Assembly (NCBI RefSeq): GCF_018143015.1
Contig: NC_054758.1
Span: forward strand, 13,372,001-13,436,000
Source: Lytechinus variegatus
Lineage: Eukaryota > Echinodermata > Echinoidea > Temnopleuroida > Toxopneustidae
Reading direction: 5' to 3'
DNA length: 64,000 bases
The translations under genes were made by a program, and so were the position numbers. A model generated the notes under the pieces. It was not told where the DNA came from, ran no database searches, and saw only the letters and a program-made list of their open reading frames with translations. Below are positions 33,085 to 56,809 of the stretch, piece by piece (within the stretch, counting starts at the first letter, position 1; the number at the start of each line of letters is the position of its first letter).

Positions 33085-33390
33085 TTTGTTATAATGTAAT
33101 AATGTATAATGTATAAACACATTCCAACCAATATATAATAATGTATAATGTATAATGTCTGAGCACATTCCATTCAATCAATTTATAATAATGTATAATG
33201 TATAATGTAAAATGTATAAGGTATAATGTATAATGTAAAATGTATAAGGTATAATGTATAATGTATAACGTATAAACACATTCCCATCAATATAGTACCA
33301 TCTCTTTCTTCATTTTGTATAAAGAATGTAATAATGTATAATGTATAATGTATAATATATGATGCATAATGTATAATGTATAATGTATAC
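33085..33390. repeat. ATGTATAATGT minisatellite inside the Ngaro element
   Basis: Tandem TAATGTATAATGTATAA units between the hydrolase and the recombinase, near a poly-G run at 33003-33020. Confidence 0.85.
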
Positions 33391-33712
33391 TGTAACAAGG
33401 GCTCCTTTGTAAACAGGCCTCTTGGCACTGAACATACCACCCTGCTTCTGAATAGGGCTGAATAAAATAAAACAATACCATGTAAGCAGATATATTGAGA
33501 ATTATACACCCAAATATCCAACAACCCATCGGCCACGGCTTTGATTAAAGCACATGTCCTCGTGTAAAGTAAACGCGTTGTGACATTATTGGAAGATAAC
33601 TTACACCTGATTTTGGTCAAAATGTCAAATAACCTAAAATCATCATTTCATATATATTTTCGTTCTTTTTTTTTTTTTTTTTTTTTTATTTTTTACTTAA
33701 CCATGTCGAGTC

Positions 33713-34612
33713 TTATATATCTCCGATGTGCACTCGAAACCCAACGCCCATGCGTTGGATTTCTTCATCCGAGCAACCGGCCATGGCAGCGGTCGTAGCC
33801 GCCCCAATACGAAAGGAATGCGATGAAAACATTGCCGCCGGCATATCCCCGTATGTCAAACATCGTTTTATCATGTTTCCAAATTCACGCCTAGTTAGCG
33901 GGAGAGCACCATATGAACAAAAGAAGGCTCCACCATTCTTTGGGCGGATTTCTAAATAACGAATAACCGCCATCACAGGGCAGCTAACTGTCCCCAACTC
34001 TGGTATCGAAATGGTGCACCCATTTCCCCGCTGGTCAGTCTTTGACTTCCTTAGGAATAATTCCACCCTGCGATGCGGTGCATCGCCAGTGACCCTAACA
34101 TCTGTGTGCTGCAGAATAGACTCACATCTATGCCTGGACTCTACTGTCAACTCACTAACTCTCAACAAACCATAAAATGCCACTGAAAAAGCAGCAGAGT
34201 ACATCAAAACATCGTAATGACTACCACAAACATGCCTCAAGTAGGCGAGCATTCTATTTAACACAGACAATGTGATTGGATGCCTAGCATCTCTTCTCAA
34301 AGTACTTCGCCTACACCCTTCAATTAACCTTGTAATCACAAAACTTTTGGTCACATCCTTTAGCCCAGATGAACTCATATAAAATGCCAACCCAGATATG
34401 TATGTTTGAATAGTAGACCCTGCATATCCCATAAAGGATAAATAAGAAATGAACTGCGCCACCCATTCTACATTAGGGGGTAGCTGGGGGTCGTATCCGT
34501 ACACTTTACAAAATTTCACGTATGCCCCCAAGGCAATAGAGTAAGTTGTGTGTGTTCGAGCTGCCCTAGAAGCCATCAGCAGTCGACTTCTCTCGATAGC
34601 CAGCTCTTCCAA
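33713..34612 (-). CDS. Tyrosine recombinase part of the Ngaro element
   Basis: Family features seen in order: an N-terminal helical core-binding region (YSIALGAYVKFCKVYG), the catalytic Arg in FYGLLRVSEL, a Lys-bearing hairpin (FLRKSKTD) and the HxxR box HSFRIGAAT. This enzyme joins the circular DNA copy to the target in DIRS-order elements, replacing an integrase. It overlaps the RNase H part slightly. Treated as a fossil component. Confidence 0.85.
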   Translation of the reverse strand: MEELAIERSRLLMASRAARTHTTYSIALGAYVKFCKVYGYDPQLPPNVEWVAQFISYLSFMGYAGSTIQTYISGLAFYMSSSGLKDVTKSFVITRLIEGCRRSTLRRDARHPITLSVLNRMLAYLRHVCGSHYDVLMYSAAFSVAFYGLLRVSELTVESRHRCESILQHTDVRVTGDAPHRRVELFLRKSKTDQRGNGCTISIPELGTVSCPVMAVIRYLEIRPKNGGAFFCSYGALPLTRREFGNMIKRCLTYGDMPAAMFSSHSFRIGAATTAAMAGCSDEEIQRMGVGFRVHIGDI

Positions 34613-36484
34613 AGACGGACTGGAACCTCCACGCCCTCCCGGGCGGCCCCGGTGCTAACGCATGGAACCTCGGCATCTGAAATCGAGATAGTGCATCAGC
34701 TATACCATTATCACATCCATGTACATGCCTAGCCCTCAACACTATATTATTGCTTAAACATATAATCACCACCTTCCTCACCAAAACCATAATATCAGGG
34801 CATAGCGCCGACTGCTTGTTAAGTACTGCCACCACGGCCTGATTATCACAATTAAACAATATATTCTTGTCCTTTAGCTCCATGCCCCAAATCTCCAAGC
34901 CTACCCAAATAGGGAATAGCTCTAAAAAAGCTATAGACCTCCTATCGGCCTGGAAATCAGCAGGCCACCTGGATTGAGCCCACCTGCCTCCAAAGAAAAT
35001 TCCAAAACCAATGCCAGCCGCCGCATCAGTGAAAAACTGAATTTCCTCGCTTCCAAACCAGCCTGGAGCCCGGAAGAAAACTTGACCATTAAAATGTGCC
35101 AAGAACTCCAACCAAACCCGCAAGTCAGCCTTAGCCCCTCTCGTCAACCTAACCATGTGAAAAGGACGCTTAACGCTCTTAGTTAAGTCAATGAGCCGTC
35201 TCATGAATGCTCGCCCTGGAGCAATTGCCTTACATACAAAGTTTAGACTACCTACAATCGACTGAATGTCTCTTAGGGAAATTTTTTGTTTCTGTACCGC
35301 CCAATTTAATTTCCCCTACTAATTTCTCAATTTTGTCCTCCGGTACCCGAACCTGCTGAGAAACGCTATCTATTACCAGCCCAAGATATGACAACTGTGT
35401 GGTCGGGCCTTCCGTTTTTTCTCGCGCTATGGGCACCCCAAATCGTTCGCAAATTGCTTCAAAACAATGCATTGCCCGCCTGCAATCCTCCGAGGCAGGG
35501 CCGCCTGCAAAAAAGAAATCATCCAAATAATGGACAATATTTTGCGACTTCGCAACTTTTCTCGCGCAAAACTCTAAAAAAGTACTAAAACATTCAAAAG
35601 TGGAACAAGAAACTGCGCAGCCCATCGGCAAACAACGATCAAAATAGTAACGACCATCTATATACATCCCAAGCAACTCAAAATCTTTTGGGTGAACAGG
35701 CAAGAGCCTGAAAGCTGACTTAATGTCAGTCTTTCCCCATAAGGGCACCCCGCCCCAATTGCGTCACAATATCTACCGCCGAATCAAAGGACGAATATGT
35801 TACTGTACACTGCCCCTCCGGTATGCCATCATTAACTGAATTTCCCCTGGGTGCCGATAAATGTTGAATCATACGGAACTCCCCTGGGGCCTTTTTGGGC
35901 ACCAACCCCACTGGTGAACACCTCATATTCTCGAAGGGAGGAACAACAAAAGGCCCAACTATCCTACCTAAGTCTATTTCATCCCTCAATTTCTTTTTCA
36001 ACGCATCCATGTGTTCGAATGCTGATTTCAGGTTTTTAACAACCAATGGGACCCTGTCCCCTTCAAAATGTAATGAAAAACCAAACTTAAAACCATTATA
36101 CAAGCACTGAGCATGCTCCTGATTAGGATAAGTAGCTAACATGGGCACCAAACGTGCTAACTTAATAGGGGTCGGAGCAATAGACGACACCGCACTAGCC
36201 GTAGACCTATTTACTGCCAGCGGGACTGGAACCGGCCCGCCCTTGGCTACACTGCTTAGCCCCATGACCTGTCGCCTGGCAGCGGGAACACTTGTGCTCA
36301 TAGATGCAAGCTTTGCCTCGCATGCACTTGCCTCTATTAAAGGCAAAGCACACGCCTCGGCTGGGTGTGCCATTGGCTCCGGGTCCCTTTCCTCCGAAGG
36401 GAAAAGATTTTCTCGCGCCGTACTCCCCTCTGTAGAACTGATGGCGAGGGGCATGGGGTAAATTGTGGCGCTGCCGCGGACCAT
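34566..36484 (-). CDS. Reverse transcriptase and RNase H part of the Ngaro element
   Basis: The RT shows LVPKKAPGEFRMIQHLS, KTDIKSAFRLLPVHP and the catalytic YLDDF box. RNase H shows FFTDAAAGIGFG, LELFPIWVG, FNCDNQAVVAVL and GIADALSR. This order and these motif variants belong to DIRS-order elements, not to LTR elements or LINEs. The upstream end overlaps the gag-like frame. Part of a broken fossil. Confidence 0.85.
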
Positions 36485-37445
36485 TAGAGGCCACCAGCAT
36501 CAACCACAACTCGGCGTCGACGCTCGCCCAGGATCGCCCGGGTAAACGCGCCTGCTTGCTCCTAAACTGAGTGTCATAGTCACGCCAGCCATAACCTGCA
36601 AACGCACGGGCTGCATGCCTTATCAAATCCATATATTTCATGAGCTCCCTGCTCCTTTCAATGTGCTTCTCAGCGTAAATTGAGGCAAATACTAGAAACA
36701 CCGAAGTCCACTGCTCTACCGACATGATTTTCTTAGCCTTTGATTGAGGTTGAAGTTGCAAACCAAGACCAGATCCCGATTGACACAAACTCAAAGTGGT
36801 GTCACCTACACTCAAGGCCCCAAACTCATCACGTGCATTATTATGCTTAAGGAGCACTCCCAAATCTATATATTCACTTGCCCAAATTTTTTCCTTCAGT
36901 GAGATAGCCACTTCCACACCTAGTGGGTCGCATGCGCTAATAAATGGTTCCGGTGCCCCCAACACGGCAGAAAGCCTAGGCGCCTGGGGCTCAGATCTCT
37001 CAACACCGACCTCCACTAGATCTAGGCCTAGATCTTCGGCTACCCCTGCCGACCGCGCCGGCACTGAAACTGCTGGCTGAGCCTGCCCCGAGCTACCGGT
37101 ATCCGACTCCTGTGCTACTATCTCATGCCAAGCAATAGATCTGCCCACGGGCGCCTGGCCTTCCCGCCCCACTAGATCTAGATCTAGCTCTGCCATTTTA
37201 TCACTAACTTTAGACCTAGGCCTACCACTTTTTTCATCAACATCGACAACTTGAGACTGAGAGGGATTTAACTCACCGCTCCTTCCTGGCTCGTTGTTGC
37301 CGCCTCCCAGCCCCAGATCCACACTTGCGGGGGTTGACGTCGCCCGTGGACCTCTCGGCCGACCCGGCCTCCTCTTCGGTGTGTCATCTCCCTTCCTCGC
37401 ACCTGCGGTCGTTATTTTCTTGGCCTTAACCTTTGGCATGATCAA
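36207..37445 (-). CDS. Gag-like protein of the Ngaro element
   Basis: About 412 residues. The N-terminus is basic (PKVKAKKITTAGARKGD, KRRPGRPRG), the middle is acidic and Ser/Pro-rich, and a folded segment lies around residues 220-330. Near the C-terminus are a CCCH-type zinc finger (C-x7-C-x5-C-x3-H) and then a CCHC knuckle (C-x2-C-x4-H-x4-C), as in DIRS-order gag proteins that bind the element RNA. First ORF after repeat A1. Confidence 0.8.
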   Translation of the reverse strand: MIMPKVKAKKITTAGARKGDDTPKRRPGRPRGPRATSTPASVDLGLGGGNNEPGRSGELNPSQSQVVDVDEKSGRPRSKVSDKMAELDLDLVGREGQAPVGRSIAWHEIVAQESDTGSSGQAQPAVSVPARSAGVAEDLGLDLVEVGVERSEPQAPRLSAVLGAPEPFISACDPLGVEVAISLKEKIWASEYIDLGVLLKHNNARDEFGALSVGDTTLSLCQSGSGLGLQLQPQSKAKKIMSVEQWTSVFLVFASIYAEKHIERSRELMKYMDLIRHAARAFAGYGWRDYDTQFRSKQARLPGRSWASVDAELWLMLVASNGPRQRHNLPHAPRHQFYRGEYGARKSFPFGGKGPGANGTPSRGVCFAFNRGKCMRGKACIYEHKCSRCQATGHGAKQCSQGRAGSSPAGSK

Positions 37446-37812
37446 CTCGCGAAACTAGAGTTAGACTCGAAGCTCCGTCACTCAGCCCAAGTCCAATGAA
37501 TCCTGGATGCAATCACCTCCAAAGTTCAATCAAGCGAACCGCCAAGAAAAATTCAATCCTGAAGTTGCAAACTGAATCTTTTAGGTCCACAAATCGGCAC
37601 AGCTAACTTAGTCTTAGTTCTACGGCAACAATTCCTGAGGCTGAAGTCTGAAGACAGTAAAAAAACTGAAATCAGCGTCTGTATAATCCAATAAAAGTAT
37701 GAATCCTTTGTGTAGATATCCGGTATAGGTAGCTAGACAAATGTCGAAATATCTGCCACCTAGGCCTAGTGTCCAATTCTAGTTGCCAGTGCCGAAAGAA
37801 AAATTTTTAAAA

Positions 37813-38113: not shown

Positions 38114-39642
38114 ATAATGTTTGTGATCTTCAAAGCGATATGCCTATGTAACTAAATTTAGATAACTGCTAGCAAGAAGCGCGAACAGAATTTTTAAATA
38201 TATAAGCTCTGACCTGATCTAAAGGGGACATTTTAAGAACTTTTTGCAGTTAGCCATGAAGACGATGCGTGTTTTAACCAATGGCGGAGGAACGTATGTT
38301 TTTTTTTTTTTTTTTTTTGGGGGGGGGCAAAGCAAAAAAAAGGGGCCAATAGGGGCAATTTGGTGCAAACGGATATTTTCACCATTAGATTATCATCTGT
38401 GTAAGAGGTTGTGTGTTTTGTAGTAACTAAATTGAGCACAATTTTTTAAGTGATCACTAAAGTTATATATTTACGTTTCATTTCTGCGAGCGTATAGAGA
38501 GCAAGCGGTTTGGGGGAAAAGTCAAATCTGAAGATGTAAAATTCACCTTTTTGGTCAATTACTGGTAAAAGGGCATCCTTGTGAGATGTTGCGAGCGAAT
38601 CACGTGCTCAAACTTTTGGAAATTTCATGTGGGCCTAGAATGATGATATTGATATAGATATTATTTACCCAGGGAAGCCACTTCAGTTCTGAAAACTATT
38701 CTCCCAGCTATTATTATTTTTTTTTACAAGAATGCTTAGAATGTCCAGTTTTTAGGTTGGAAAATCGGAAAAATTTGGCTCACGTTTCTCGCTCGCAACA
38801 AGTATTGTTTATTGAGGAACTCATTCTATTCCTGGTTACAAAAAAAGAAGTATGAAATGTCCAGTTTTCAGGTTGGAATATCACAAATTTTAAGCTTGCT
38901 GTTCGCGCTCTCATTATTTAGTTCGTGAGATATATATTCTATTCATGAGTCACTAAATGCAGTCCTTAAAAGATTACTTTCTGAAGCCTGTTGCATAAAA
39001 CTTTTTACCTGAGAAAACTCTGGTAAAAACTGAAAACTAAGGTTAGTCTGATTTCCGCCATTGACTTTAGCACAGGGCAAAACTCCAGTAAAAACAACCT
39101 GAGTTTTCTCAGGTAAAAAGTTTCATGCAACGGGCCCCAGGTCAGTATATAAACAAATTACAGCTCGCCCTCGCATTAATTCTTTAGAAAGATACACATC
39201 TTTTTTTCACGATTACAAAAAATGCTCCGAATGCTCAGTTCGCGTCTTGTTACATGAAATGTCTACTAGTTTGAGCTTGCGATTTGCGCTTTCAACATCT
39301 CACAAGGATCATTATTAGTATTATTTTTATTTTTATTACCAGCAGAAGCTGTTATTAAAAATGACATCCCCTCCAATACAAATCCTATTATCTAGAGGTT
39401 GCTCGCACGCTTCCAACACACTTGATCCCCTGCATCTTTAATTAAACCATTTGCTTAGGCAGCAATTGCTCAGATAAAATCGAAATTAGCCTATGCTTGA
39501 TCAGGGCGCCTATATTCTTAATGAAATACATGCTTTGGCCCCAACACACGCATGTATCATCGATCGTTATTACTATCATTGCATAATATCGTGTAATCTT
39601 GTAATGACAACATCGTTTTTGTTACCAAAATGAATTATTTTC
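38114..39642. repeat. R4 repeats, right side
   Basis: 38280-38660 matches the left R4 directly (GATATTTTCACC, GATGTTGCGAGCG). 38780-38960 and 39160-39300 match it in inverse. A MITE sits at 38986-39135. Confidence 0.6.
38986..39135. mobile_element. MITE with GTTGCATAAAAC ends
   Basis: 150 bp. Left GCCTGTTGCATAAAACTTTT and right AAAAGTTTCATGCAACGGGC are inverted repeats running about 45 bases inward (TTTTTACCTGAGAAAACTC). Confidence 0.85.
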
Positions 39643-39938
39643 ATTTTCGGAAATACGAACCTTATTTAATTTTCGGATTAACGAACCTTATTTCGTTTTC
39701 GGATTAACGATCCTTCGGAATTACGAACCTTATTTTGTTTTCGGATTAACGAACCTTCGGAATTACGAACCTTATTTCGTTTTCGGATTAACGAACCTTC
39801 GGAATTATGAACCTTATTTCGTTTTCGGATTGACGAACCTTCGGAATTACGAACCTTCGGAATTCCGAACCTTCGGAAATACGAACCTTCGGAATAACCG
39901 AACCTTCGGAATTACGAAGCTTCGGAATTACGAATGTA
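39643..39938 (-). repeat. TTCGTTAATCCGAA array, right arm
   Basis: Inverted version of the 27115 array: CGGATTAACGAACCTT and TTCGGAATTACGAACC units. The terminus CGAAGCTTCGGAATTACGAA complements the left end. Confidence 0.9.
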
Positions 39939-41200
39939 TGCGACTGTGAACACACTGTGAAACACACTACAGGTCACTATATATTTTGCAGCTGATCGAG
40001 GATGTATTCATTTGTTGTGCGATTATTTGGCTCAAAATTGATTTCACATTGTGTTCCAAAGCAAACCGTGAATCACACTGTAAACTTACTGTGAATACAC
40101 TGTAACACACTACGGGTCACTGTGTTTTTGCAGCAGATCGAGGATGTAGTCTATAATTGTGCAATGTGTTGACTCAAGTTGATATCATGTTGTGTTTCAA
40201 AGTGTTGTTACTGTGACCCAAACTGTGAAACTCGATGTGCAGGCCTTCCGTATGTGCATTATATTGAAGCTGTTGTCATTTCTTTGTAGTCATTCCCTGG
40301 TTCTAATCGTTTTCACATTATGTTCCAGACTTTGAACGCACTGTGAGACACATTGGGTGATTTCAAGTACGGTGTTGAAATCTGGTGTTGGTGTTAACAC
40401 CAACACCAGCCACAACACCGTACTTGAAATCAGGCTGGTGTTGGGATTGACCTCGGAAAATATGACGTACTTCCGGCAGTTCGTGTGGAATGACGTCTGC
40501 TGAACCCAGCACTGAGGCTGGTGTTGACGATCTACATGCAATTTCCACATTCTCCAACACCATGATTTCAAGTTCGGTATTCCTGATGGTGTTGGCAATC
40601 TCAAGCTCGTGAACCGGCGGCAAACACGATGAACAATCCCCGTAAAATTAGCTTTTCAGTCAAGAAAAGCACATATTATTTGAGCTTTATATATTTTGAT
40701 GAAGAATACTGTTCACTCATTCGAATTCTTGAATTAAAGCATTGGTATTCTGTACGATGAGAATTCAATGCATTTCTCTCCGATTTCATTATCGGCGTCA
40801 ATACTTCTCGCGTGAAATGGAGATGACTTAGTATAGCAGCGCAGAGGCATTACGTCATGTGCTATTGACAATGCAATCAGTATCGTTCCTCTGAACCCAG
40901 CTAGGTGTTGGAGCTCGGTTCAGCGGCATTTTTACGCTCTAAACTTCAACACCAACACTGAACACAGTACCTGAAATCACCCAGTCTGTTTTGGAGCAGA
41001 TCGGGGATACAAGCTTTTTTGGTGCAATTTTTTGACTCACTAATCGAAAACAATAAAAAAAATCCAAACATTGACCATAATTGTGGGACACATTGCGCGA
41101 CTCTGTGTTTTCTCCCCGTAAATCAAGGCTTGTAGGCATGTGCATGTTTTGTTTTATTTTTGTGTGCAATTCTTCGCTCAAATCGATAGTGTGTTAGTGT
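39939..41200. repeat. CACTGTG minisatellite, right part
   Basis: Units of about 130-150 bases: CACTGTGAAACACACTAC, GGTCACTGTGTTTTTGCAGC, AGATCGAGGATGTAGTC, TTGTGCAAT, TTGACTCAAGTTGAT. Interrupted by a MITE at 40354-40983, then resuming with TTTTGGAGCAGATCGGGG. The last unit runs to about 41200 and overlaps the stop codon of the receptor gene. Confidence 0.7.
40354..40983. mobile_element. MITE with TGGGTGATTTCAAGTAC ends
   Basis: Left end TGGGTGATTTCAAGTACGG, right end GTACCTGAAATCACCCA. Just inside the left end the terminal sequence is mirrored: 40358-40432 is a near-perfect palindrome centred at GTTAAC. It interrupts the minisatellite cleanly. Confidence 0.8.
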
Positions 41201-41318
41201 CAGTCTTCAAGCATCTCAGGGTAAGGATCTTCATGAAACTGTCCTTGAAGGCTTCGTCTGCCAGAGCGTAACAGATCGGATTGATCATACTATTCATGTA
41301 GCCCCAGAATATCACTAC
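41178..41318 (-). CDS. Muscarinic-like receptor, exon 3 (TM7 and tail)
   Basis: The acceptor TTATTACAG|GTAGTGATA opens the exon in phase 0 after exon 2. It encodes TM7 with the class A NPxxY region as NPICY (VVIFWGYMNS, MINPICYALADEAF), then a short tail, KDSFMKILTLRCLKT, ending DTNTLSI-stop. Muscarinic receptors have YVNSTINPVCYAL here, so the match is strong. Tyr 7.43 is kept; Tyr 7.39 is replaced by Ile. The final residues and stop fall in sequence similar to the adjoining minisatellite. An intron of 6.6 kb separates it from exon 2. Confidence 0.85.
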   Translation of the reverse strand, partial: VVIFWGYMNSMINPICYALADEAFKDSFMKILTLRCLKTDTNTLSI

Positions 41319-41471
41319 CTGTAATAAAAAAAAATGTATACATTAATTTTAGAAAAAAAATAGTGAACAGAATGTCAGCGACACACATACTTATCAAAGA
41401 TAGTATACTCCCCCCCCCATGTTACAGTCACATGAACGAAACTATTCAACCTAGTCTGCAATCGCATACTC

Positions 41472-41472
<1 letters not shown>

Positions 41473-41514
<42 letters not shown>

Positions 41515-41565
41515 TATATATATACATATATATACATGCATACATATATATATATTATATACCAC
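41473..41565. repeat. TA-rich microsatellite
   Basis: TA repeat with ATACA interruptions in intron 2 of the receptor gene. Confidence 0.9.
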
Positions 41566-41644
41566 TCGAATGGGTTTCAGTGGGATGGAACGCACGATCA
41601 GCCAGTGCTGTTTATCTTACGGGTCCATATTTGAAACTTCAATC

Positions 41645-41835
41645 AATAACAGGTCTAGAGTTTAGACGAGACGCCATGCAGAGACTCTGTCTGTGTAAGC
41701 CAGCTACAGTTCATAGTGAATAGTCTCACTACTTCAGATTCTGCATTATGCATTATGCGAAATTGCGAAAAAAAACAAGGGTCTGTGCCTGCAGACTAGA
41801 TACCACCGTCCGATTAGATATAGTTTTAATCGATG
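41645..41835 (-). repeat. Dispersed repeat R2, copy 2
   Basis: Reverse-orientation relative of 15548-15780; the overall match is patchy. Confidence 0.6.
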
Positions 41836-41989
41836 CAGAGTGACATTAGGGACGGTTCACAACACTACACATACGCTTTCTGGAACGTAAATAATATATT
41901 GTCAAAAGCCCTCATGACAAAGCAGCCTTTGTAAAAAAAATCGGTAATTCAAGACAGCAGTGTCGTCCTGGCCTATGGGCAAATGACAT

Positions 41990-42115
41990 AATTTTGCAAG
42001 TTTTCATTATCTCCAAATCTTAGGACGATCTGCCCCGGTTCCCATATTATTCGACAATAACCTCTAAGCTGTTTATTGTGATTTGACGGGCATTTTTAAT
42101 AGGTTCTCACTGTTC
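41990..42115 (-). repeat. Dispersed repeat R3, copy 2
   Basis: Reverse complement shares AATGCCCGTCAAATCACAAT and GATCGTCCTAAGATTT with 11480-11620. Confidence 0.6.
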
Positions 42116-42269
42116 CAGAAAGCGTCTTCACGAAAAGCGTTTGAGAAAACTCTTTAATGTAGAGATGCTATCAACTGGTCAACCTGTGGGCCCAATCCTG
42201 TGTTATAAAATTTGGAATACGTGTTCGTTAGAATTTTAAAAGATACCAACGGCAATCAAATTAATTCAC

Positions 42270-42425
42270 CTCTCCTTCTTATTCTTCTTCTTCTTCTTCT
42301 TCTCCTTCTCCTCCTCCTTTTTCGATGTTGCCTTTTTTCTCTTCTTCTTCTTTTTCTTCTTCCTCTTGTTGTTGTTATTATTATTACTACTATTATTCCT
42401 CTTCTTCTTGTTTTATTTCTACCTT
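42270..42425. repeat. CTT/CTC-rich tract
   Basis: Imperfect TTCTTCTTC and CTCCTCC repeats in receptor intron 2; non-coding. Confidence 0.85.
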
Positions 42426-43408
42426 TCCAGTTTTACCTTTTTTGTTTCACACATTATAAGCCAACTTTATCAATATGGGCTATATAGAAACATTTTAAAG
42501 GAAAATGGCATACGTTAACCTTCATCAAATAAGAATTATGAGACCAAGTTTGCTTTTATATAATGATTGAATAAGAAGAGGGAGTAATTTTCTCTCCTTC
42601 TCAGCTTCTTACAAATAAACTTTTCACAAATGGGAACCGTTATATAATTCAAAGAGCTTATCAATAGACAGAATTCGCCTTTTGTCAAGGAAAATCAATA
42701 TGCAAGAATATATACAATTTCATATGATATTGAAAATAAAATTTATAAACATCAAATAACCATTATACCGAAGAAATTGGTATCACGGGCCAATACCACG
42801 TGTGACATTTAAAAAAAAAATATGTCACCTAGATAGTACAGGTTTTACTGAATATCAAACCACTTTTTGTAAAGGACGGAAACTGAAATGGGAGAGTCAA
42901 TCCACTTTACAATATATGCAATTATTCGATTGAAAAGCTTGACCTTTCATATAGGGCAGTCGTTATGTTTTTATCAGCCATTGAAATATCTAAAACGCTA
43001 TTTTGAATGTGCCAAGAAAATCAATGAAAATATATTCAGATATACTTTCTTATCAAACAATATTTCTATTTTCGATCTTATTTTCCGATGCCATGCTGAT
43101 TTTCAATGATATTCGTCTAGAAATCGAATTCCGCATTTTTTCCGGCAGTTCTTTTTATTTTTTCTTAAAGAAGCCACCTATGATACTAACAAATGTTCCG
43201 AGACTTGATAAAACAGATTTTTCACCCCTCTAAATCGATATCAGTACGGTTGATACGGTTTTATTAAATTCATACGGAGAAAAGGGGTTTTATGTCCTCT
43301 TTTATAGATAAAATGACCTTCCGCGATCGCATTGAAATACCAGTCACTCTGCAATACTTGCCAAGAGCGCTACCAAGAGTAAGATTCAAATTCAAACGAA
43401 TGCGATTA

Positions 43409-44013
43409 TTTAAAGGACAATGCCACACCAACAAAACCTTCAACAAACATTTCAATTAAAAAAAGAGAAAAATCCAACAAGCATAACATTGAAAGATTCA
43501 TCAATATTAGATGTAAAAAAAGAAAGTAATGACATTTTAAAGAAAGTTATGACATTTTAAAGTTTCGCTTAATTTCACAAAAAAGTTATATGCACATCCT
43601 GGTCGGTAAGCAAGTGAGAAGACTGATGACATCATCCACTCACTATTTTTTTTTGATACATGAAATGTGAAATATTATAATTCTTTCCTCATTAACATGA
43701 TAAAGTGAAGCAATAATTGATTTCTCCCTGAACATGTTGAAATGGCATTGTTTAATACCAAATGGTTCAGTCAGGTTGGTCTATTGTCAAATCTGTAAAC
43801 ATTTAAAAAAGAAATAGTGAATGAGGGACATCATCGTCTATCTCGTTTGCTTATCATCATGTTGTGCTTCTCACTTTTTTTGTGAAAAATGAGCGAAATT
43901 TTAAAATATCATAACTTTCTTATTTTACGTCCGATTTTGATGAAATTTTCTGCTAGTTTGAATTGTTTCTATTGATTTAAATCAATATTTTTGCTGGGTG
44001 AACTTAATCTTTA
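43409..44013. mobile_element. MITE with GGTCAAGTCCACCT-type ends, copy 2
   Basis: Diverged relative of 26166-26740: TTTAAAGGACAATGCCACACC at the left, and at the right TATTTTACGTCCGATTTTGA, GATGAAATTTTCTGC and a TGAACTTAATCTTTA end. In receptor intron 2. Confidence 0.65.
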
Positions 44014-44159
44014 TCTTTCTATGTCATGCCTAATACTCAATTTTCTACTCCCTCTATACATCCGTATTCATGATACCCTAACATAATATTCGATCAAATC
44101 TGTTTAACCAAGAGGGTCACAAAATTTGTGCGTGCATAATGTAGTCCTATACATTACTT

Positions 44160-44290
44160 TCTATCAAGGGCGCCGGAAGCGGGGGGGGGGGGGGCAGGGG
44201 GCACAAGTGCCCCCAAAATAAAATTTTGGGGGGCAAAACGAGATTTTGCCCCCCCCCCATGTGCCCCCCTGAAAGTAGAAAAAAAATTAT
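44160..44290. repeat. G-run/C-run segment
   Basis: GGCGCCGGAAGCGGGG, then poly-G and poly-C blocks that can pair (CACAAGTGCCCCC / GGGGGGCACATGGGGG). Probably the end of a MITE like 21988-22140. Confidence 0.5.
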
Positions 44291-46589
44291 TATATAAGGA
44301 AAAAGCAAACGAATGCGCTTTTCTGCCAAAAAATTGTCATTTCCATCGTCAAAAATGAAAAAAATTTGCCCTTGACGGAGCAAATACATTATCATAGTAA
44401 GCCTCGCGTCTTTCGACGAAAAGCTCCTCTGTGAAACATACATTTCATAAGCCCCTTTTCCAACTTATTAAAGTGTGATAACGTTTAACCTTTTAATGAA
44501 TACATTTCAGACTAAAAGCGAATGGCAAATTGATAGTGGTCCACCAATGATTAGGTTTATAACTCTATGGTGCTGGCTGTGTCGTCTAACAAACGCGCGG
44601 TCGCCCAGAAACGCTCAGACCGGACCCGATATCACTAAAGCGCGTGAACACTAGTTACTCGAGCAACATTAATGGAATCTATGTCATAGCTGTCAAGCCC
44701 AGAAACCATAACATCTCGAGAAACTTGTTTCAATTATTTCATTTTCAACTAAATATAAGTTTAGTACAGCGCTAACAAGTCAGTGCCCTAAAGAAAATAC
44801 CAAGGTCATTTCAACTCAATATAGACACGTTATCAGAAAATTACACGCAGAATAATCATGTGTAGAGGACTATAATTTATAATTTTTGAAAATGGTGAAT
44901 CTCACTCGAGAGCAACTTGAGATAAAGTTTAGACATGAAAATAATAAAATCATCTGTGAAAGTGTCTTCTTGACCGGACTCATATTATCCGAGATATGAA
45001 TAAAAATGTATATAAAGAATATAAAAGAAAAAAATAAGCGTTACAGTACTGCTCTACTTAAAAAAAAATCTTAAGATATTTTCACAGCCCCGTATTTTCC
45101 TCTAGTCTTTTTCATTGGCATGATTGGAAGGCGTTTTGTCTGATACTATTTCAGCTTATAGGATATAGCACTTATATATTTTAGATTCCAAAACTTCTTC
45201 CCATTTCCTGTTACTAATCAGATCGAGATGGCAGCTATGTTCTCTGGTTCATGCCAGCTTTTGTTATTCATGGACGTTTGCACAAATAAAAAAAACAATC
45301 CGGGAGTGGGTGGGGCTGCAAGACCTAAATTTTCGAAGAAACTTAAGAGCGAGGGGGTTTGTGATGGGGGAGCTTAAAAAAATTCTAGAATATAATTGAA
45401 AGATTTCGTGCACACTTTTGGTGAATTTTGTGAATTTTGCCCTCTCGATCGGCGGCCCCCGGCTGCGTACGGTCATGTTTGTCATCTTAAAGTCTTTAAA
45501 AGGCCTATATTACATTGGTTTGAAACAATTCGTTTGCAATAAGGCTCGTAATTCGCTGGAACTGCGACCCTGATCATGAAGAAACACCAGTCTGGGTCAG
45601 AAGGGAGGAAACAGAAGGAGCAAAAAGAATTCCAAGACTGTTTAATTCTCAAGAAATTTATTTTGAATGCTCTGGCTATGCAACTTTTATACTCCATCTT
45701 TACACAAAGTCCTTACCGTGGGTCCCACAGCCTCTCCTGCTCGATCGCTTCGGTATCTCACACTGTCAAAAATATTGTGCCCCCTTCGGGATTTAAAAAA
45801 AAAACTGAAAGTGTTCCGGCGCGCCTGCTTTCTATGTTTAGTGTTTGCGATTCTCGGCAACATTCAAATCATGCATTTGCAATAAGTGGTCATTTTACAG
45901 CAATGACAATTTTTATGTGCATTAAAGAGCCACCCCGAATGTTTATGTTTATTTTTTGTCAGAATAAAAAAAAACATATTTCTTTTCATCTTTATCATTA
46001 ATTTTAGCCCCTTTAATATGCATCGCCTTCATCTATAAAATTATGTTATTTTTTCTTGTTACGTTTTCCCACATTCGTCGTGTTGATGTACATTGTTTTC
46101 AATTGCTATTTCCTATTCCCCCCGGTTATAATTTGTATTTCAAATATTTGCAAGAATATAATCAGGTCAATCTAAATGCGCTAATTCATTGTTTTGAAAT
46201 AATTGATCGCAATTCGCTATATTTCATGTGAATCAGGTTGGTCAAGACAGCTAGGATCGTTCTCAGTAAAAAGCTTTTTTCCGGAAGTTGTAAAATCCGT
46301 TTAATGGTCACGGTTTTGGTTTAGTTTAAAGTTGTAACACAACATCTGTGTTGAACTTGTAATTTTCCATAAAATGGCATGCGCATGACTAAGAGAGGGA
46401 CTAACTATTTTGCGCAAATGCAAAGTTTTTTGGGTCATAAGTAACTTGAGATTGCATAGCCAATCTCAAACTATCAATTAATGGTATGCCATCAACCCTA
46501 CATATCAGAAAATGTATTTGATAGTCAGTAGTCAGTTCATATCTACTTCAGATCGAGTTAATACTCGTCTTCAGCTGGAGTGCACTCTA
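44291..46589. other. Receptor intron 2, nothing recognised
   Basis: No domain-bearing frame. Bases 46546-46574 on the minus strand hold a weak hammerhead-like remnant (see findings). Confidence 0.5.
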
Positions 46590-47536
46590 CAGGGCGTATC
46601 AAAAAAAAGTTTACACTTTGAAAAAGCCCTGGGAATTAAAAAATATACATGTGGGTAATTTTTTAATTTTAAAGTTTTGACAGAATGTTACACTTGAGTG
46701 AAGACTGTCCATTTTTGTATAGCTCGCAGAAATCTGTTTGGGCATAAATGCTTGTTTTCACCATGTGTCAAGCGGAACGGGCGAAATCAAACTTACCCTG
46801 CGAAATATTTTTCATACATTTCCCTGGCACTTTCAGTTAATTTAGATAAAACGGATACATTCAAGCATTTTGTAACAATTTTGCTACCCAAATTGATATT
46901 TCAACACTTAGTAAGCACAACCTTTACCCTTTTTGTGCCAGCTGGATCTGAGGACATAACATTCATCTTAACAAAGGTTTACATTAGACATCTCCAACAT
47001 TTTTTCACTAATTTTTTGTCATTTAAAGTAGGTTTACATTTCTTTTTTCTTATAATACTTGTTTCTCTACACTTTTCCCAAGCTTGACATTAATTAACAA
47101 AATGAAAATCAAGCCTAAGCCATTTCATGTAGATCACAGCTCAGTGTAAAGCAAATATCGTCTTGATGGCCTCGGTTTGTGGGGGAGTGGGGTGGGGCGC
47201 AAAGCACTCTTCGAAGTGTTTTGGGCAAGGAAACAAGTTTAAAAAAGTAAAATATATCTTCTAATCAATTTTACTAGCTAAATTCCACGTGTTCTTTATG
47301 ATTAAGGTCTACTTTTATTCGCATAACTATTTCAAAGTTCTGCTCAAATTATTTTTCACTAACTTTTCAAAAGTAAGTGGTGCTCACTCAAGCGGAAATA
47401 TTTTACGCTAGTTATATCATCATATGCTTAAATGGGTCTGTACCAATATTAAAATGTGGAAAAATCTTCAGGATATTACAAATGTATAATTTTACAGGAT
47501 TTTTTTCAAAGTGTAAACTTTTTTTGATACGCACTA
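46590..47536. mobile_element. Non-autonomous Tc1/mariner-like element
   Basis: 947 bp between TA dinucleotides (46588-46589 and 47537-47538). The inverted ends are about 33 bp: CAGGGCGTATCAAAAAAAAG, then TTTACACTTTGAAAAA; the right end is TTTTTTGATACGCACTA. TA duplication and these ends fit the IS630-Tc1/mariner superfamily. Interior frames (46698-47087) have no DDE motif, so it is taken as non-autonomous. In receptor intron 2. Confidence 0.75.
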
Positions 47537-47940
47537 TATATTTCGGTGCAGCGCGACAAAACTCGCCGTTCTCCCACGTTAGGAATTCTTCTACACGGCC
47601 TTCATATTGTACATGTGTTATAAATCATGCGCCGCACCCCTAGAAATTACGTTGGTGTACTTAACTGTAAATTATGAAATATTGCTCTTTTTTCTTCATT
47701 GTTATTATTTTTTTGGATTGATAACCATACCATGGTTAAAAAATCGTTCCCAGTACACTGATTTATGAATATGATTGATTCTCCTAAAGACGACAAGAAC
47801 ACGCTTGTCGAGGTGGTCCTTTTCTGGACCAACACCTTCCCCCAGAAAGATACATGGTGTACCGTGAACTTCCCACTACAATCTGTGATTGTATTATGCA
47901 AGTTTAAAAACGAATTGTCAATGGGCTGACGTATAATTAC

Positions 47941-48056
47941 CGAATAGACGATACTCGGCACGCACGTGGGGCAAAATGGTGACGTCACTGTGACGATTAC
48001 GGCCGGGAACCATGCTATCCACATAGCAGTAACGATAAAGGCCAAGGTACGAACGC
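47941..48056 (-). CDS. Muscarinic-like receptor, exon 2 (TM6)
   Basis: A 116-bp exon bounded by acceptor CTTCATACGCAG|GC and donor TATTCG|GTAATT. Phase 1 in and phase 0 out match exons 1 and 3. It encodes TM6 and the third extracellular loop: GVRTLAFIVTAMWIAWFP, then FCPTCVPSIVYS. Muscarinic receptors read ARTLSAILLAFIITWTPY and FCDSCIP in the same register. Trp 6.48 and Pro 6.50 are kept; Tyr 6.51 and Asn 6.52, which contact acetylcholine, are Ala and Val. Confidence 0.85.
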
Positions 48057-48325
48057 CTGCGTATGAAGAAAAACAATAGAATTGCATGTATATCAAATAG
48101 CTTCAGCTAAATCAAAACGATGACGTAACAATAAGCTGTTTTCTATAGTTATGCTTTATTTTTATTTTATTTATGTTTCACTTGCATTTCAGCTTTTTTC
48201 ATATTTATAATACCATATCCCCATGGAGCACGACACCCACTACTCAGACTTGGTCGGAAATTGGTCCATATGGTTCTTAGACGTAGTGTATGAATATAAA
48301 CCCGTTATTATTGTTTGGAGCCAAG

Positions 48326-48503
48326 GGCCCGTTTCATAAAGCTCTTCGTAAGTTAAAAGCGACTTTAAGAACGACTGGTGATCCTTTCTTACGCGCTAAA
48401 CCATCATCAATGAACATTTGTATGCATACCATTTACCACAAGAAAAGATTACCAGTTGTTCTTAAAGTCGCCCTTAACTTATGATGAGCTTTATGAAACA
48501 CTA
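48326..48503. mobile_element. MITE with GTTTCATAAAGC ends, copy 2
   Basis: 178 bp with arms of about 60 bases: GGGCCCGTTTCATAAAGC and GCTTTATGAAACACTAACC, and inner CGACTTTAAGAACGACTGGT matched by ACCAGTTGTTCTTAAAGTCG. In receptor intron 1. Confidence 0.85.
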
Positions 48504-48976
48504 ACCAGGCCGATTTTCGGGTATTCATTTAACTATACATCATGAACCGATTAATCCAAGGGGCCTATTGCAGAAGGAGCTACGATCAAACGCAACTAAA
48601 AAAAACCCTACGTGCCGGTATGTACATACATGTATAGAGTATAGTTAATGAATGATTTCCAAACTTAGCAACAACAACGGGTGATTAAAATGGGATTTCC
48701 TAATAATCAATTGGTCAATTTTATTTTTCACTCAGGTAATACTATCATATAGGATTCTTTCTTGTTATGATTTGGACATTGAGCATTCTTTGTGCTGAAT
48801 AACCGACACATAATTTTATTCATAATTAGGTCTATTGTCAGATAAATATTATTCACAATATCTGTAACCAACTTTAAAATTTCAGCTACCAATAATTATT
48901 TAAGCCTGCAATAAGATTGTATTTTCATACAGAATATGAATAACTAATGACTACTTTGAATAGATTTGTGACAAAC

Positions 48977-49874
48977 CTTTCATGCTCTCACTGCCGATTT
49001 CCTTTGTCTTTTTTATGTCTTCCTTTACAACACTCTCAGTCGCAGTTGATGTCTGTACCGATGCAGTTATGTTGCCAGTTCCAGGATCACTTGGCCGGTC
49101 GACAGCGGAAGACGGAGACTGCACGATCCCTGTTGCAAGTCTCATCTTCTTTCGCCCTTTGTAGAATTTTCTAATGACGGCGTAAATTTTGGCACAGAGG
49201 ACGGTTGTTAGGATAAAGGGGACGAAGAAGTAAACCATGGGAAGGACAAAGCTTGCAGCAACACTTTGAAAGTACAAGGGTTCGCAAACATCTTCAGGAA
49301 AGGGCCTTTGGTCATTGCCGTTGATGATTTGCCAGAGAGTCGTCGCCGGTAACCAGACGACGAAAGGGAGAATGTAACCGATTGTAATGATGAGGATTGC
49401 ACGGGACCGTCTTCGCCAGTGTTGACGATGTCGGAAAGGGTCCGATACAGCAACGCAACGATCGAGGCTGATGAGGGTGACGAGTACCATGCTCGTATGT
49501 GTGAACGCGTGGTCGAGGAAGGTGAAGATATCACAGAAGACGGCACTGAACGGCCATCGTCCCATGATGATGACGACGGCGAACAGAGGCATGTCGACTG
49601 CACCGACCAACAGGTCGGCGATGGCCAGACCCAAAATGAAATAGTTGTTGTAAGTGCGGAGTTTGGTTGTCGTGCAGAACGCGATGACGACGAAGAGATT
49701 CCCGACGACGGTCATGAAAATGATCACAGCTATGACCACGGATAATACAATAACGACTGCCAGAGAATAAGGACTCGACAGGGCAATATCCTCACCGTGT
49801 CCTGCGAACATGACCTCGGTAACGACATCAGTCAGAATTTCAGAAGCCACCGTTGTGCCGACAAGGCTAGACAT
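48977..49874 (-). CDS. Muscarinic-like class A receptor, exon 1 (TM1-TM5)
   Basis: Encodes residues 1-299 of a 384-residue plasma-membrane receptor. TM1 carries GN (Asn 59, 1.50), TM2 LAIADLL (Asp 87, 2.50), TM3 Cys 114 (3.25), Asp 121 (3.32, the amine-binding Asp) and DRC in place of DRY. TM4 has FVVWLPATTLWQ, very like muscarinic FVLWAPAILFWQ. Loop 2 has Cys 197 and TM5 Pro 219. The third cytoplasmic loop is short and basic or Ser/Thr-rich, ending at donor ATGAAAG|GTTTGT in phase 1. Met 1 precedes an extracellular stretch of about 35 residues without N-glycosylation sites. A G-protein-coupled role is expected; the ligand is uncertain because His replaces Tyr 3.33 and Cys replaces Tyr 5.58. 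Confidence 0.85.
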
Positions 49875-52473: not shown

Positions 52474-53803
52474 CTCACACTTTCCGCATTAAACGACATG
52501 AGCCATTTCCCCTCCCATTCCTGAACACTGGCTAGATCTCTTTGTAGGAACTCAATATCATCATGGAAGTTTCTTGATCTGTATAGGAGGGCGTCATCAG
52601 CATATAGCCTGATAGAAGAAGAGACACAATCAGGGAGGTCATTGATGAAAATCAAGAACAGAAGCGGACCGAGGACTGTACCTTGGGGCACGTATAACTT
52701 GCTGTGTACGCCCTTTAAGAAAGCCCTTTATCCATGAGAGTAAGTAAGTGACCTCGAACTCCATAGTGGTTCAATTTAAGAAGGAGACGCTCATGAGGCA
52801 CTCGGTCGAAGGCCTTTGAAAAGTCGAGAAGAATGTCATCGATATGTTGCTTGTCTCTGAGTCCTGTCACAAGGTCATGAACTGTTAATAGCAGTTGCGA
52901 CTCACAAGATCGTCTCTTTCTAAAGCCAAACTGACAGTCTGTTGGGAGGTTGCATGTATCAAGGTGATGCATGATTTGGCTGTTTACGATATGCCCTGCA
53001 ACCTTACAGATGATAGAGGTAAGGGAGATAGGTCTATAGTTCTCTGCCTTGTGTTTATCGCCCTTCTTGAAGATTGGTACAGCGTTGGCTGCTTTCCATG
53101 CATGAGGTATCTTTCCCTCCTTAACGATATGTTTAACAAGAGAGAGAGAGAGAGCTGGAGCTATCTCACTTGAGACTCCCTTAAGCAGGTAAGCAGGAAG
53201 GTCGTCAGGACCACAGACTGTATGTGGTTTCAGGTTGGCAAGAAGTTTCCTTACAACTTCACTGTCAATAACAAAGGCAGAAACTGAAGGATGTGGACTT
53301 TCTCCAAGGTCTGATAGATGTGATGAGTCTTCCTTGGTAAAGACCGAGGTGAATTGGTCATTCAGTAAGTTTGCCTTGGCTGAGGAGTCACGCTGGAGTA
53401 CACCGTCCTCCAGCAGGGGTGCAACACCTGTGTTTTCACATCGCATGTTCTTGATGTAGGACCAGAATCTTTTGGGTTTACATATACCTTCATTACAGAG
53501 CATGTCTCGTATGTAAGCATGATAGGCAGATCTGCATTCACTTTGCATGACCTTCTTGAGATTGTAGTATCTGTCCCAATTTTCGGCTCTGTGAGATTTG
53601 CGTGCGGTGTTGTAGGCTCGTTTCTTTCTCCTAGATAAGGTTTTCAGGTGTTGATTTATCCATGGTTGGCTGAAGAGAGAAGAGTACTCGGAAGGAAACA
53701 TGGTGTCCATCACCTTGTGGAGCTCAGAAGATATCTGTTCCCACATATCGTCAACGTTGGTGTTGTTGACATTAGATTGGACAAACGCCTTCCCAAATGA
53801 CAT
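52467..53803 (-). pseudogene. LINE reverse transcriptase
   Basis: RT blocks in order: FKKGDKHKAENYRPISLTS, CQFGFRKRRSCESQLL, DILLDFSKAFDRVPH, PQGTVLGPLLFLIFINDLP and the catalytic YADDALLY. Two frames are needed: 53803-52715, then 52691-52467. At the switch, near 52700, about 12 codons usual between QQVI and VPQG are absent. Target-primed reverse transcription was its role. Confidence 0.9.
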
Positions 53804-53815
53804 AATTTCTGACTT

Positions 53816-54200
53816 GATACAGTCAAAATCAGCTTTTCTCCATAAAACAGATTTTCCGACGGACTCGTTTCAGTTTCTTTGCACGAACATCAGATATTGC
53901 GAGGATCCTATCATGATCGCTTACTCCTGGCAAGGGTACGCATTTGCTGATCAGCGCTGGCCTATTCGTCAAGAACAAATCAAGTGTTCTGTCCCTGCGG
54001 GTTGGAAAGTTAACAATTTGTGACAGATCGACATCATTGAAGGTGTACATAAAACAATCATTCAGTACAGCAGTGTATTGGTGACCTTCAACTGATGCAG
54101 TGTTCCAATTAATGTTGGGAAGATTGAAATCCCCGCTGACCCAGACTACTGCTGAAGGATTACTGATCGTAATCTGTTGGATTGCTTGGAACAGAGACTG
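53816..54200 (-). pseudogene. LINE endonuclease, C-terminal part
   Basis: Encodes AIQQITISNPSAVVW, the catalytic-core block GDFNLPNINW, QIVNFPTRRDRTLDLFLTN and the SDHD motif (GVSDHDRIL) of the APE-type endonuclease. Asp and His of SDH are intact. It is separated from the N-terminal part by the foreign segment at about 54215-54477. Confidence 0.85.
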
Positions 54201-54214
54201 AGCATAGACCAGGG

Positions 54215-54477
54215 GCAGTCTTCAGGAGTGAAGACGGACAATCAACCTGTCCGAAATGTCGAGTCTCTCTACTACTCATCATCTCTACTCGCCGACTCAA
54301 GCCAGCATCTCCTCATCAGCTCTACTACTCAAGCTGTTCTCCTCAACATTCCTTCTGGTTTACAGTCCTTTTCAGGACTATTTTCAAGAAAGAATACTCT
54401 ACTCTCAAATCTCCACTTTCTCGCCTATCCACTTCTTCTATCCACTGTTTCTATAACACTCCACATGGTGTACCGTA
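54215..54477 (+). mobile_element. Foreign 0.26-kb segment in the LINE endonuclease
   Basis: LINE coding sequence stops at both edges and about 50-60 endonuclease codons are missing here. The segment carries TGAAGACGGACAATC...GTCCGAAATGTCGAG, a hammerhead-like core (54228-54260), followed by CTACTACTCAT-rich sequence. It could be a 5'-truncated Penelope-like tail. Boundaries are approximate. Confidence 0.5.
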
Positions 54478-54633
54478 AACCACATCAGCAATAGATCATT
54501 CTTGGTGGCAAGAAGAACACCTCCATAACCATCATGCCTATCTTTTCTGATGGGTGTGTTGTTACCTGGTGGGATCATTTCAGAGTTCAACAAAGTTGGT
54601 TTCAGCCAGGTTTCATTGGCAACAATTACGTCT
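54478..54633 (-). pseudogene. LINE endonuclease, middle part
   Basis: Encodes PDVIVANETWLKPT (catalytic Glu block ETWL) and RHDGYGGVLLATKNDLL. Lies between the two insertions. Confidence 0.85.
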
Positions 54634-56526
54634 GGGGGGTATTCTGAAAAGTCTCGTAAGTTTCCACTTAAATTTCCTTTTAAGTTACCCATTTAATGGA
54701 GCGCTAATGTACCTCCAAATTCGTATTCTGAAAACTCTATTAGCGCTCAATTAAGTCCCTTTAGGCCACTCCCCTACTGAGCAGAATTAGCCAATCAAAT
54801 GCGCTTTTACAACGTAAAAATTTCTCTTAGCGCGCAGTGTCTCTTCACTTTGCTGCCTTGCAGCGCAGCGCCCGGCAGCTGCAGGTGCACTGCACCACGA
54901 TCTTGATAAAAAGATTTTTTGCTGAAATGCTAAAGCAATGCTAAAGCATTTGCATCTGTGATAAGAGGTTCGTTATGTTGTTGAAATTAACTGTTGTCTT
55001 TTCCCTTTCTCTCTCATTTATTGTACCTTCGTGCTTTTCTCTATTTTTCGAACGCTTTCTGATTTTCACATCCCCCTATTTGAATCCATTTGTAGCTTTC
55101 TTTCTTTTTCTTTTTTTTTACAATATTTTATTTGCCTCTGTCTCGGGGCCATGATGAGGGGGGGGTTCTTCTTGAACTTAATTCCTACTTGTTTTAAAAA
55201 CTACATACTTTTTTCATTTATATGAGAAATCTTCTCCAACAAAATTTTAATAAACATATTTTAAAAATCAACAAGCATTATTTAAAAAGATAGCCGAAAT
55301 TTTATTAAAATTTAATGTACAAACGTTATGACATTTATAGGTTTTTATAGGTGGGGAAACCGATGGCATCACTCACTATTTTTTTCTTTTGTATTTTATT
55401 CTATATTTGTTTAAATATTAAAGGGGTCTATGCTTATTTTTCATTGTCAGAAACAAGGTTTAATTCACCCCTGCACATTGCTGCATCTACCGAGATTGGC
55501 AATTTCATTATTGTCAAAAAAAAGTGTGCAAAAACAAATAGTTTATGAAGCTAGAAAATGTAGAAAAATAATAGTCATATTTCTTATAAGTACGCAATTT
55601 CTTTCTCCTTTTTCCCCTTTTCTAATTTCTTTATTAACAAATATAGTCCCTATTCCTTATTTTACTTGTTTCTATATACCACATTTTCCCCTTTATTCTA
55701 TTCCCTTTTTAGCTCTCTCCTTTATTCTCTTCCTTCCTTCTTCCTTCCTCCTAGTATTAAACCAATTTGATGATATCTATACGAAATGAAAGCAACATTT
55801 AGCAAGATATGATGAGACTTAATGGACCTCTTATCACCATTATCTTTCCCCACTGGAAAGTCCGCTAATTGAGCGCTATGAGACTTTTCAGAATACCAAA
55901 AGTCTCGTAACTCCTCAATTAAGTCTTCGCGCGGTCATAACGCGTATGGTCAGTTCCCCCATGTCTGCGCGGTCTCCCAAGTCTGCGCACCCGCGTATCT
56001 GCGCGATTCTAGTAAAAGAATATACGCAACGAACACAAACTTTGCACATTCAATGCATAGACAGGTATTCATAAAAAAATCCGACTCAAAATGGTGGAAA
56101 AATAATGAATTCAGGGCATTTCATGTGACGGTCTCAAAATGCAGCCTTTTGTCATCAAAATTCCCGAATCGTGTGCAAAGTGAATGAGTGCGCAGACATG
56201 GGGTACCATTTTTTTTCAATCTGAAAATGACTGCCCGAGGTTTTATCCAAGAAAATCATATATTTCTTTCAAATTTTTATGAGATATTTGGCACACTAAC
56301 TCATTATGATGTAAGGAACATTATCAACTTAAAGATTTTGTGAAATAAGAAGAAATTCATGTTAAATCTTAACTCAAATTGTTAGGTGCGCAGACTTGGG
56401 GCCCACCATCATACTATTGCAAGTGCGCGCAACGCAAACCTGCCAAATAAGGAAAGGGCACTTAAGTGACTTCAGAATACCAAAATGCTAATTGACCGCT
56501 AATTGAGCTTTCAGAATACCGCCCCC
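54634..56526. mobile_element. 1.9-kb inverted-repeat element inserted in the LINE
   Basis: Ends GGGGGGTATTCTGAAAAGTC and GAGCTTTCAGAATACCGCCC are inverted. Removing it restores the LINE codons CAACC+AGACG (Gln-Pro-Asp-Val), so the edges are good to a base or two. The terminal motif GTATTCTGAAA also appears at 54724 and, inverted, at 55889 and 56472, implying nested or duplicated ends. 55965-56405 holds an inner inverted pair (CCCATGTCTGCGC / GCGCAGACATGGG). No transposase is recognisable. Confidence 0.8.
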
Positions 56527-56774
56527 GGTTGACAACTTTCCACCGCTTCCCAGAGGGCTTCTCTTTTGGCACACATGGATTGCAGATTAACGGACAGGAC
56601 ATTCAACGGTCTTGCTATGTTCTTCCTCCTTTTCGAGTTGCCTTTTTTAGGAGAAGACTGGTACAAGGGAGATCCAGAATTGGGTGCAGGTTGTCTTCTT
56701 CTCAAGGGTGAATGAGTAGATGAGAGCTTTGAATCATCACTGCCCATGCTTGACGTACATGTAGAGTTGTCCAT
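56527..56774 (-). pseudogene. LINE endonuclease, N-terminal start
   Basis: A basic linker (PLRRRQPAPNSGS, KRRKNIARP), then LNVLSVNLQSMCAKREALWE and VESCQPG: the first strand and Asn block of the APE-type endonuclease, cut by the 1.9-kb insertion. Confidence 0.85.
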
Positions 56775-56809
56775 GTCCGATAATACCTGAAACTGGTTTT
56801 CAGAATCAC

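Follow-up and report, generated by a model that had tools for sequence, protein, structure and literature searches.

A putative orphan amine-type receptor with a ligand pocket unlike that of muscarinic receptors, and its family, in the sea urchin Lytechinus variegatus

A complete class A receptor gene

We analysed a 64,000-nucleotide (nt) stretch of Lytechinus variegatus DNA (NC_054758.1, positions 13,372,001 to 13,436,000; hereafter the window), which is C19:13372001-13436000 of a genome of 869.6 Mb in 33 contigs. Its minus strand holds a gene that encodes a complete class A G protein-coupled receptor (GPCR) with seven transmembrane segments (TM). The three exons (Table 1) join into a coding sequence of 1155 nt, giving 384 amino acids and a stop codon. 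This exon model goes back to a preliminary description of the window and it stood, as the frame is complete, both introns are GT-AG and the splice places recur in three paralogs, P1, P2 and P3. Because frame and splice places recur in these copies and the ratio of non-synonymous to synonymous substitution rates (dN/dS) is below 1 in all but 1/4000 resamples, the gene is not a product of chance.

Table 1 Features of the receptor gene, in window positions
Feature	Position	Strand	Details
Exon 1	48977..49874	-	Start codon, N-terminus, TM1-TM5, third intracellular loop (ICL3); phase 1 end (AAAG|GTTTGT); same donor place in P1, P2, P3
Intron 1	48057..48976	-	GT-AG, 920 bp, phase 1
Exon 2	47941..48056	-	TM6 and loop 3; phase 0 end; like exon in P1-P4
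Intron 2	41319..47940	-	GT-AG, 6622 bp, phase 0
Exon 3	41178..41318	-	TM7, helix 8, C-terminus, TGA; like exon in P1, P2, P3, P4
Possible polyadenylation signal AATAAA	41153..41158	-	About 20 nt past the stop; read by eye, unproven

The Pfam family 7tm_1 matches residues 58-355 (E 8.1e-46), and the class A core is present with N1.50, D2.50, C3.25-C45.50, R3.50, P5.50 and W6.48/P6.50, as well as N7.49/P7.50/Y7.53 in TM7. Searched with phmmer against sequences of solved structures, the receptor matched 704 distinct sequences. Among the best 60 of these 704, the first 30 are muscarinic receptors or their fusions (E 1.4e-49 to 8.9e-42), followed by four histamine H3 entries from 1.1e-40, one designed M1 fusion (1.3e-38) and other amine receptors from 9.2e-36.

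Six related receptors in one genome

A protein search of the genome with the window receptor gave 120 matches. The closest relative among them is P1 on C19, 87% identical in exon 1 and about 180 kb from the window gene, followed by P2 (L041, C19:10351000-10360900; 83%, about 3 Mb away), P3 on C17 (51%), P4 on C18 (49%) and P5 on C3 (33%). With P5 as query the order was P5 itself, P4, the window gene, P1 and P2, with P3 level with the muscarinic-like receptor L019. P1, P2 and P3 have the three exons and intron phases of the window gene, and P2 carries an AATAAA at the place matching its possible polyadenylation signal. P4 shares the phase-1/phase-0 intron pair by its acceptors and second donor; it has the like TM6 exon, about 24 kb separate its first and TM7 exons, and its first donor was not located. 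In P5, TM1-TM6 stand in a single frame with a donor at the phase-0 intron place, and TM7 was not found in the DNA examined around it. Using tblastn, no paralog was found elsewhere in the 64-kb window, and no relative was confirmed in viral contigs or in other genome contigs (5 and 17 pattern matches).

For phylogenetic analysis we assembled 56 rows: the six family members, 4 human receptors and 46 receptors of the sea urchin's own genome. The latter are 28 of 38 search loci plus 18 places hand-picked from the 120-match list, and are a sample only of the two lists (152 and 120 matches). Ten loci were left out, namely L009 and L010-L014 (the six members themselves), L034 (the TM7 exon of the window gene), L003 and L008 (the same places as L016 and L017) and L006 (a near-copy of L005). 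L054, whose frame is broken near TM6, was dropped from all trees after the 56-row tree. From these sequences we firmly place the window receptor and P1-P5 in one clade of at least six members, with support of 100/96 in the 56 rows and 100/99 once the rows lacking Asp3.32 are removed. In the open-access literature searched we found no paper on this six-gene subfamily, although such a paper may still exist.

Selection on the copies was estimated by the Nei-Gojobori method with a codon bootstrap of 1000 resamples for each of four pairs. For the window gene, dN/dS was 0.392 against P1 (bootstrap 0.258-0.606), 0.280 against P2 (0.192-0.415) and 0.140 against P3 (0.037-0.236; dS 2.63, near saturation), with a ratio of at least 1 in 0/1000 resamples each time. 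Between P1 and P2 it was 0.408 (0.276-0.597), reaching at least 1 in 1/1000. No frameshift separates the window gene, P1 and P2, and the close copies are under purifying selection. The TM do not evolve more slowly than the other parts in every pair (0.283 vs 0.479 for the window gene and P1, 0.351 vs 0.229 for the window gene and P2). P2 has an intact frame, yet lacks Pro5.50 and Tyr7.43, perhaps through early decay or an altered role.

The genome also holds receptor gene pairs with equal scores that lie far apart on one contig, among others C5:20042437/25271579, C4:31060206/40068847 and C1:24442486/26219391. These are either recent duplicates or the result of assembly duplication.

A pocket that keeps the amine anchor and lacks the muscarinic lid

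Residues were numbered by alignment to human M2. The window receptor has D3.32, H3.33, A6.51, V6.52, I7.39, Y7.43, DRC, Y4.50 and C5.58, so that every residue named in the preliminary description was read correctly; T3.36, H3.37, S5.39, L5.42, Y5.46 and G7.42 are further changes. The muscarinic tyrosine lid (Y3.33, Y6.51, Y7.39) is absent, with His, Ala and Ile in its place, and the muscarinic Asn6.52 is Val, while the amine-type pair Asp3.32 and Tyr7.43 remains. In this the earlier view of a lost tyrosine cage around a preserved amine anchor holds.

We compared 14 pocket places with those of M2. The choice of places is our own; the lid (3.33, 6.51, 7.39), Asp3.32 and Asn6.52 are named in passages of PMC8696876. 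The window receptor matches at 4 (Asp3.32, Trp4.57, Trp6.48 and Tyr7.43). Human M4 and M5 match at all 14, and the muscarinic-like receptors of the same genome at 12 (L021) and 8 (L019 and L018). Human H3 matches at 4, and four further receptors of the genome (L001, L004, L005 and L033) at 3 to 7. As its score equals that of H3, the predicted pocket is about as far from the muscarinic one as is the pocket of another amine receptor. In this genome, each of the three muscarinic-like receptors read, L018 (C7), L019 (C1) and L021 (C7), has Ser instead of Asn at 6.52.

The pocket is largely a family trait. Asp3.32-His3.33 and W6.48 occur in all six members, no lid tyrosine stands at any place read, and 4.50 is Tyr or Phe, not Trp, throughout. 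Five of the six have Cys5.58, and five have the pair His3.33/His3.37, where P2 has Gln. Y7.43 is found in 4 of the 5 members with a located TM7 (P2 has Phe). For comparison, TM3 was placed by script in 55 of the 56 rows (L054 excepted). The placement looks wrong in L018, L031, L036 and L055; TM3 is readable directly in the sequence of L018, L036 and L055, and L031 was left unread, which makes 48 non-family rows read in all. Among these 48, Asp-His occurs only in L032 (L030 has Glu-His), and neither the histidine pair nor the full Asp3.32-His3.33-x-x-x-His3.37 patch, present in 5 of the 6 members, occurs in any.

The pocket had been described as rebuilt. It does differ from the muscarinic pocket, but the recency that the word suggests did not hold: because the pocket is common to the six-gene clade, with Asp-His kept in both the window gene and P3 at a dS of about 2.6, it is old. 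A proposed unusual basal activity, for which DRC was the main ground, likewise found no support, as DRC occurs in only 3/6 members, 3.51 varies elsewhere (DRF in L021, DRM in L018), and R3.50 and NPxxY are intact. With 3.51 variable among the receptors read, DRC is a weak sign of high basal activity.

Placement among amine receptors depends on the rows sampled

The gene had been placed with the muscarinic receptors in part by its exon phases. This argument was rejected since in L018, L019 and L021 a single open frame spans TM1-TM7, and exon structure thus does not place the window gene with muscarinics. An intron shared with the receptors that lack Asp3.32 (Asp-less receptors) was rejected for L025 and L026, where a single exon covers both TM6 and TM7 and the donors are likely of phase 0.

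Among solved receptors the muscarinic ones are nearest, and to that extent the earlier placement stands; the trees, however, shift with row sampling. In the 56-row tree a starred branch (95/95) separates the six and 14 Asp-less receptors from the remaining rows, and L018, L019 and L021 with human M2, M4 and M5 form a separate branch (91/77). Forcing the six to join the muscarinics costs 9.2 log units (approximately unbiased (AU) test, p 0.128; p 0.064 with L024 added), and forcing them to join the H3-like set costs 9.3 (p 0.133). We built three reduced trees. With the Asp-less rows and P5 out, the five remaining members join the muscarinics at 86/88, unstarred, with the fork that joins L018, L019, the remaining muscarinics and the clade drawn open, and joining the H3-like set costs 8.2 log units (AU p 0.101). 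With the Asp-less rows out and all six kept, the six join the muscarinics at 89/86, again unstarred. With the Asp-less rows kept and P5 out, the five fall with the Asp-less receptors (100/94; AU p 0.067 for the muscarinic grouping), and a starred branch (96/91) holds the muscarinics alone, with the window clade outside. A group uniting the muscarinics with the five and the Asp-less receptors is not rejected (AU p 0.392), nor is one in which the H3-like set replaces the muscarinics (p 0.094). In none of the trees shown is the window clade grouped with H3-like receptors. The phylogeny called for earlier thus unites the six in one clade, but whether they stand beside the muscarinics or beside the Asp-less receptors depends on row sampling. 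The root was not inferred, and long-branch attraction may contribute to the Asp-less grouping (stems 0.64 and 0.86).

A ligand probably other than acetylcholine

We consider it reasonably probable that the window gene encodes a working orphan amine-type class A receptor with a main ligand different from acetylcholine; here expression, amine binding and the exclusion of acetylcholine as main ligand are all three inferred. Our best guess is a different amine. In muscarinic receptors, Y3.33C with A5.46G yields designer receptors exclusively activated by designer drugs (DREADDs) that are extremely low in acetylcholine sensitivity, according to part of PMC12015759. Passages of PMC8696876 report that mutations of the lid tyrosines impair agonist binding and propose that N6.52 holds acetylcholine through a water in M2. 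Since these five places named in the literature (3.33, 5.46, 6.51, 6.52 and 7.39) all differ from M2 in the window receptor, to residues other than the DREADD ones, acetylcholine is an unlikely ligand.

In such a receptor, a ligand with a protonated amine would enter the usual pocket and pair there with Asp3.32, close to Tyr7.43. His3.33, His3.37, Leu5.42, Tyr5.46, Ala6.51, Val6.52 and Ile7.39 would select a ligand other than acetylcholine. Binding would move Trp6.48, and the intact Arg3.50 and NPxxY would relay the signal to a G protein.

Several observations weigh against this interpretation. The best solved-structure matches (best 60 of 704) are muscarinic. A tick type B muscarinic receptor (mAChR-B) that carries His at the 3.33 place, along with three more pocket changes, answers acetylcholine and muscarine, with a half-maximal effective concentration for acetylcholine of 0.68 uM, or 0.15 uM with added G protein, as given in the part of PMC13022164 consulted. 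Because this receptor responds, some of the pocket changes seen here do not exclude acetylcholine. The loss of Pro5.50 and Tyr7.43 in P2 shows that family members can drift. Finally, a single-sequence AlphaFold2 model of the window receptor was unusable (mean predicted local distance difference test score, pLDDT, 48.6).

Of background relevance, sea urchin embryos have M2-like and M3-like transcripts, the M2-like one being absent in L. variegatus (PMC12467107, in part), and the portion of PMC5442662 available holds nothing on amine-type receptors.

As a long shot, the acid-histidine patch of TM3, whose histidines lie one helical turn apart, could make ligand binding sensitive to pH or to a bound metal ion, for example zinc, and the six could form a separate amine-type subfamily that keeps Asp3.32 and links muscarinic-like receptors to a possibly chemosensory expansion without it.

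Alternative explanations

The receptor could instead be a divergent muscarinic receptor, like the protostome type B, that answers acetylcholine through Asp3.32 in an atropine-insensitive pocket. The muscarinic best matches, the grouping with muscarinics once the Asp-less rows are removed and the AU tests of the wider row sets (p 0.128, 0.064 and 0.067), which do not reject that grouping, all point this way, as does the tick receptor with His at the 3.33 place. Yet 6.51 and 7.39 are changed here too, and the four divergent pocket residues given for the tick receptor in the consulted part of PMC13022164 include neither. The pocket agrees with that of M2 at only 4 of 14 places, three receptors with a full set of lid tyrosines already exist in the genome, the exon structure is unlike theirs, and with Asp-less rows present the starred muscarinic branch leaves the window clade outside. 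We regard this explanation as unlikely.

Alternatively, the family may be the Asp-keeping sister of a larger, possibly chemosensory set without Asp3.32, sensing an environmental or social amine and not a transmitter. This agrees with the joining of the six to the 14 Asp-less receptors, and of the five without P5, at high support. By eye, some of these have stretches in common, for example LRTYNNYFI and a loop containing DP, and one Asp-less receptor also best matches solved muscarinic M4. Against this stand the missing root, the long stems that may attract each other and the introns, which are unlike those of L025 and L026. To us such a sister relationship seems quite improbable.

A decaying or unexpressed duplicate, for which the repeat-rich surroundings, the two close copies on its contig (P1 and P2) and the residues lost from P2 might speak, is very improbable, as frame, splice sites and class A core of the window gene are intact and dN/dS was below 1 in all but 1/4000 bootstraps over the four pairs, a pairwise test that is blind to very recent loss in a single copy.

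We therefore keep to an amine-type receptor with a main ligand probably other than acetylcholine. Best-hit annotation would probably call such genes muscarinic, and the window gene shows how that can mislead. Its ligand, if found, could add a new amine specificity, and its place in the tree could reveal how expansions of Asp-less receptors arose from amine receptors. For now, this is one orphan receptor family in a type of genome with many hundreds of GPCRs; S. purpuratus has 954 by one count, cited from part of PMC7042368.

Other features of the window

The minus strand at 32137-37454 carries retroelement-like ORFs (open reading frames) with matches to RVT_1 (E 3.4e-12) and to a GDSL-like hydrolase (E 1.7e-6, below the Pfam cut-off); one ORF resembles a tyrosine recombinase by eye, without a Pfam match. 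We take these ORFs to resemble DIRS/Ngaro elements. Pieces like long interspersed nuclear elements lie at 52715-57388 (-), with RVT_1, an endonuclease (Exo_endo_phos_2) and a PHD finger. Three tRNA-like sequences of 71-72 nt with a TCA anticodon are found at 22940-23011, 60484-60555 and 60892-60962 (-), of which two, 37.5 kb apart, score alike in the Rfam tRNA family (60.9 bits). Given this length, they may be repeats derived from tRNA and not true selenocysteine tRNAs. Arrays of TTCG..CGAA units (periods 16, 26 and 42) of the same type occur at 25374-27573 and 39639-39934, about 12 kb apart. An ORF at 9533-10279 (+) looks by eye like the end of a C-type lectin carrying a tail rich in proline, a reading set aside as it has no Pfam match at 1e-3.

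Comparison with known receptors

The muscarinic receptors M1-M5 are the best solved matches of the window receptor and have Asp3.32, Trp4.57, Trp6.48, Tyr7.43 and the TM4 and TM7 motifs in common with it. The window receptor differs in having no lid tyrosine and no Asn6.52, in Tyr4.50 and Cys5.58 and in most pocket places, and its gene has introns before TM6 and TM7 that are absent from the muscarinic-like genes of the same genome. Like the window receptor, the tick mAChR-B carries His at the 3.33 place and is changed at 3.36 and 6.52, places that we matched from the residue numbers in the consulted part of PMC13022164. Compared with this published description, the window receptor also lacks Tyr6.51 and Tyr7.39. 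The tick change in TM5 (Ala193 of human M1) is presumably at 5.43, not at the 5.46 changed in the window receptor. Histamine H3 and the H3-like receptors of the genome provide the second-best solved matches and share Asp3.32, but they are not grouped with the window clade in the trees, although the AU tests do not reject such a joint group (p 0.133 and 0.101). The sea urchin surreal-GPCRs are likewise lineage-specific class A sets in echinoderms (PMC7042368, in part), and the Asp-less receptors near the window clade may belong to this sort. Compared through that published description only, the window receptor differs from the surreal-GPCRs in keeping Asp3.32.

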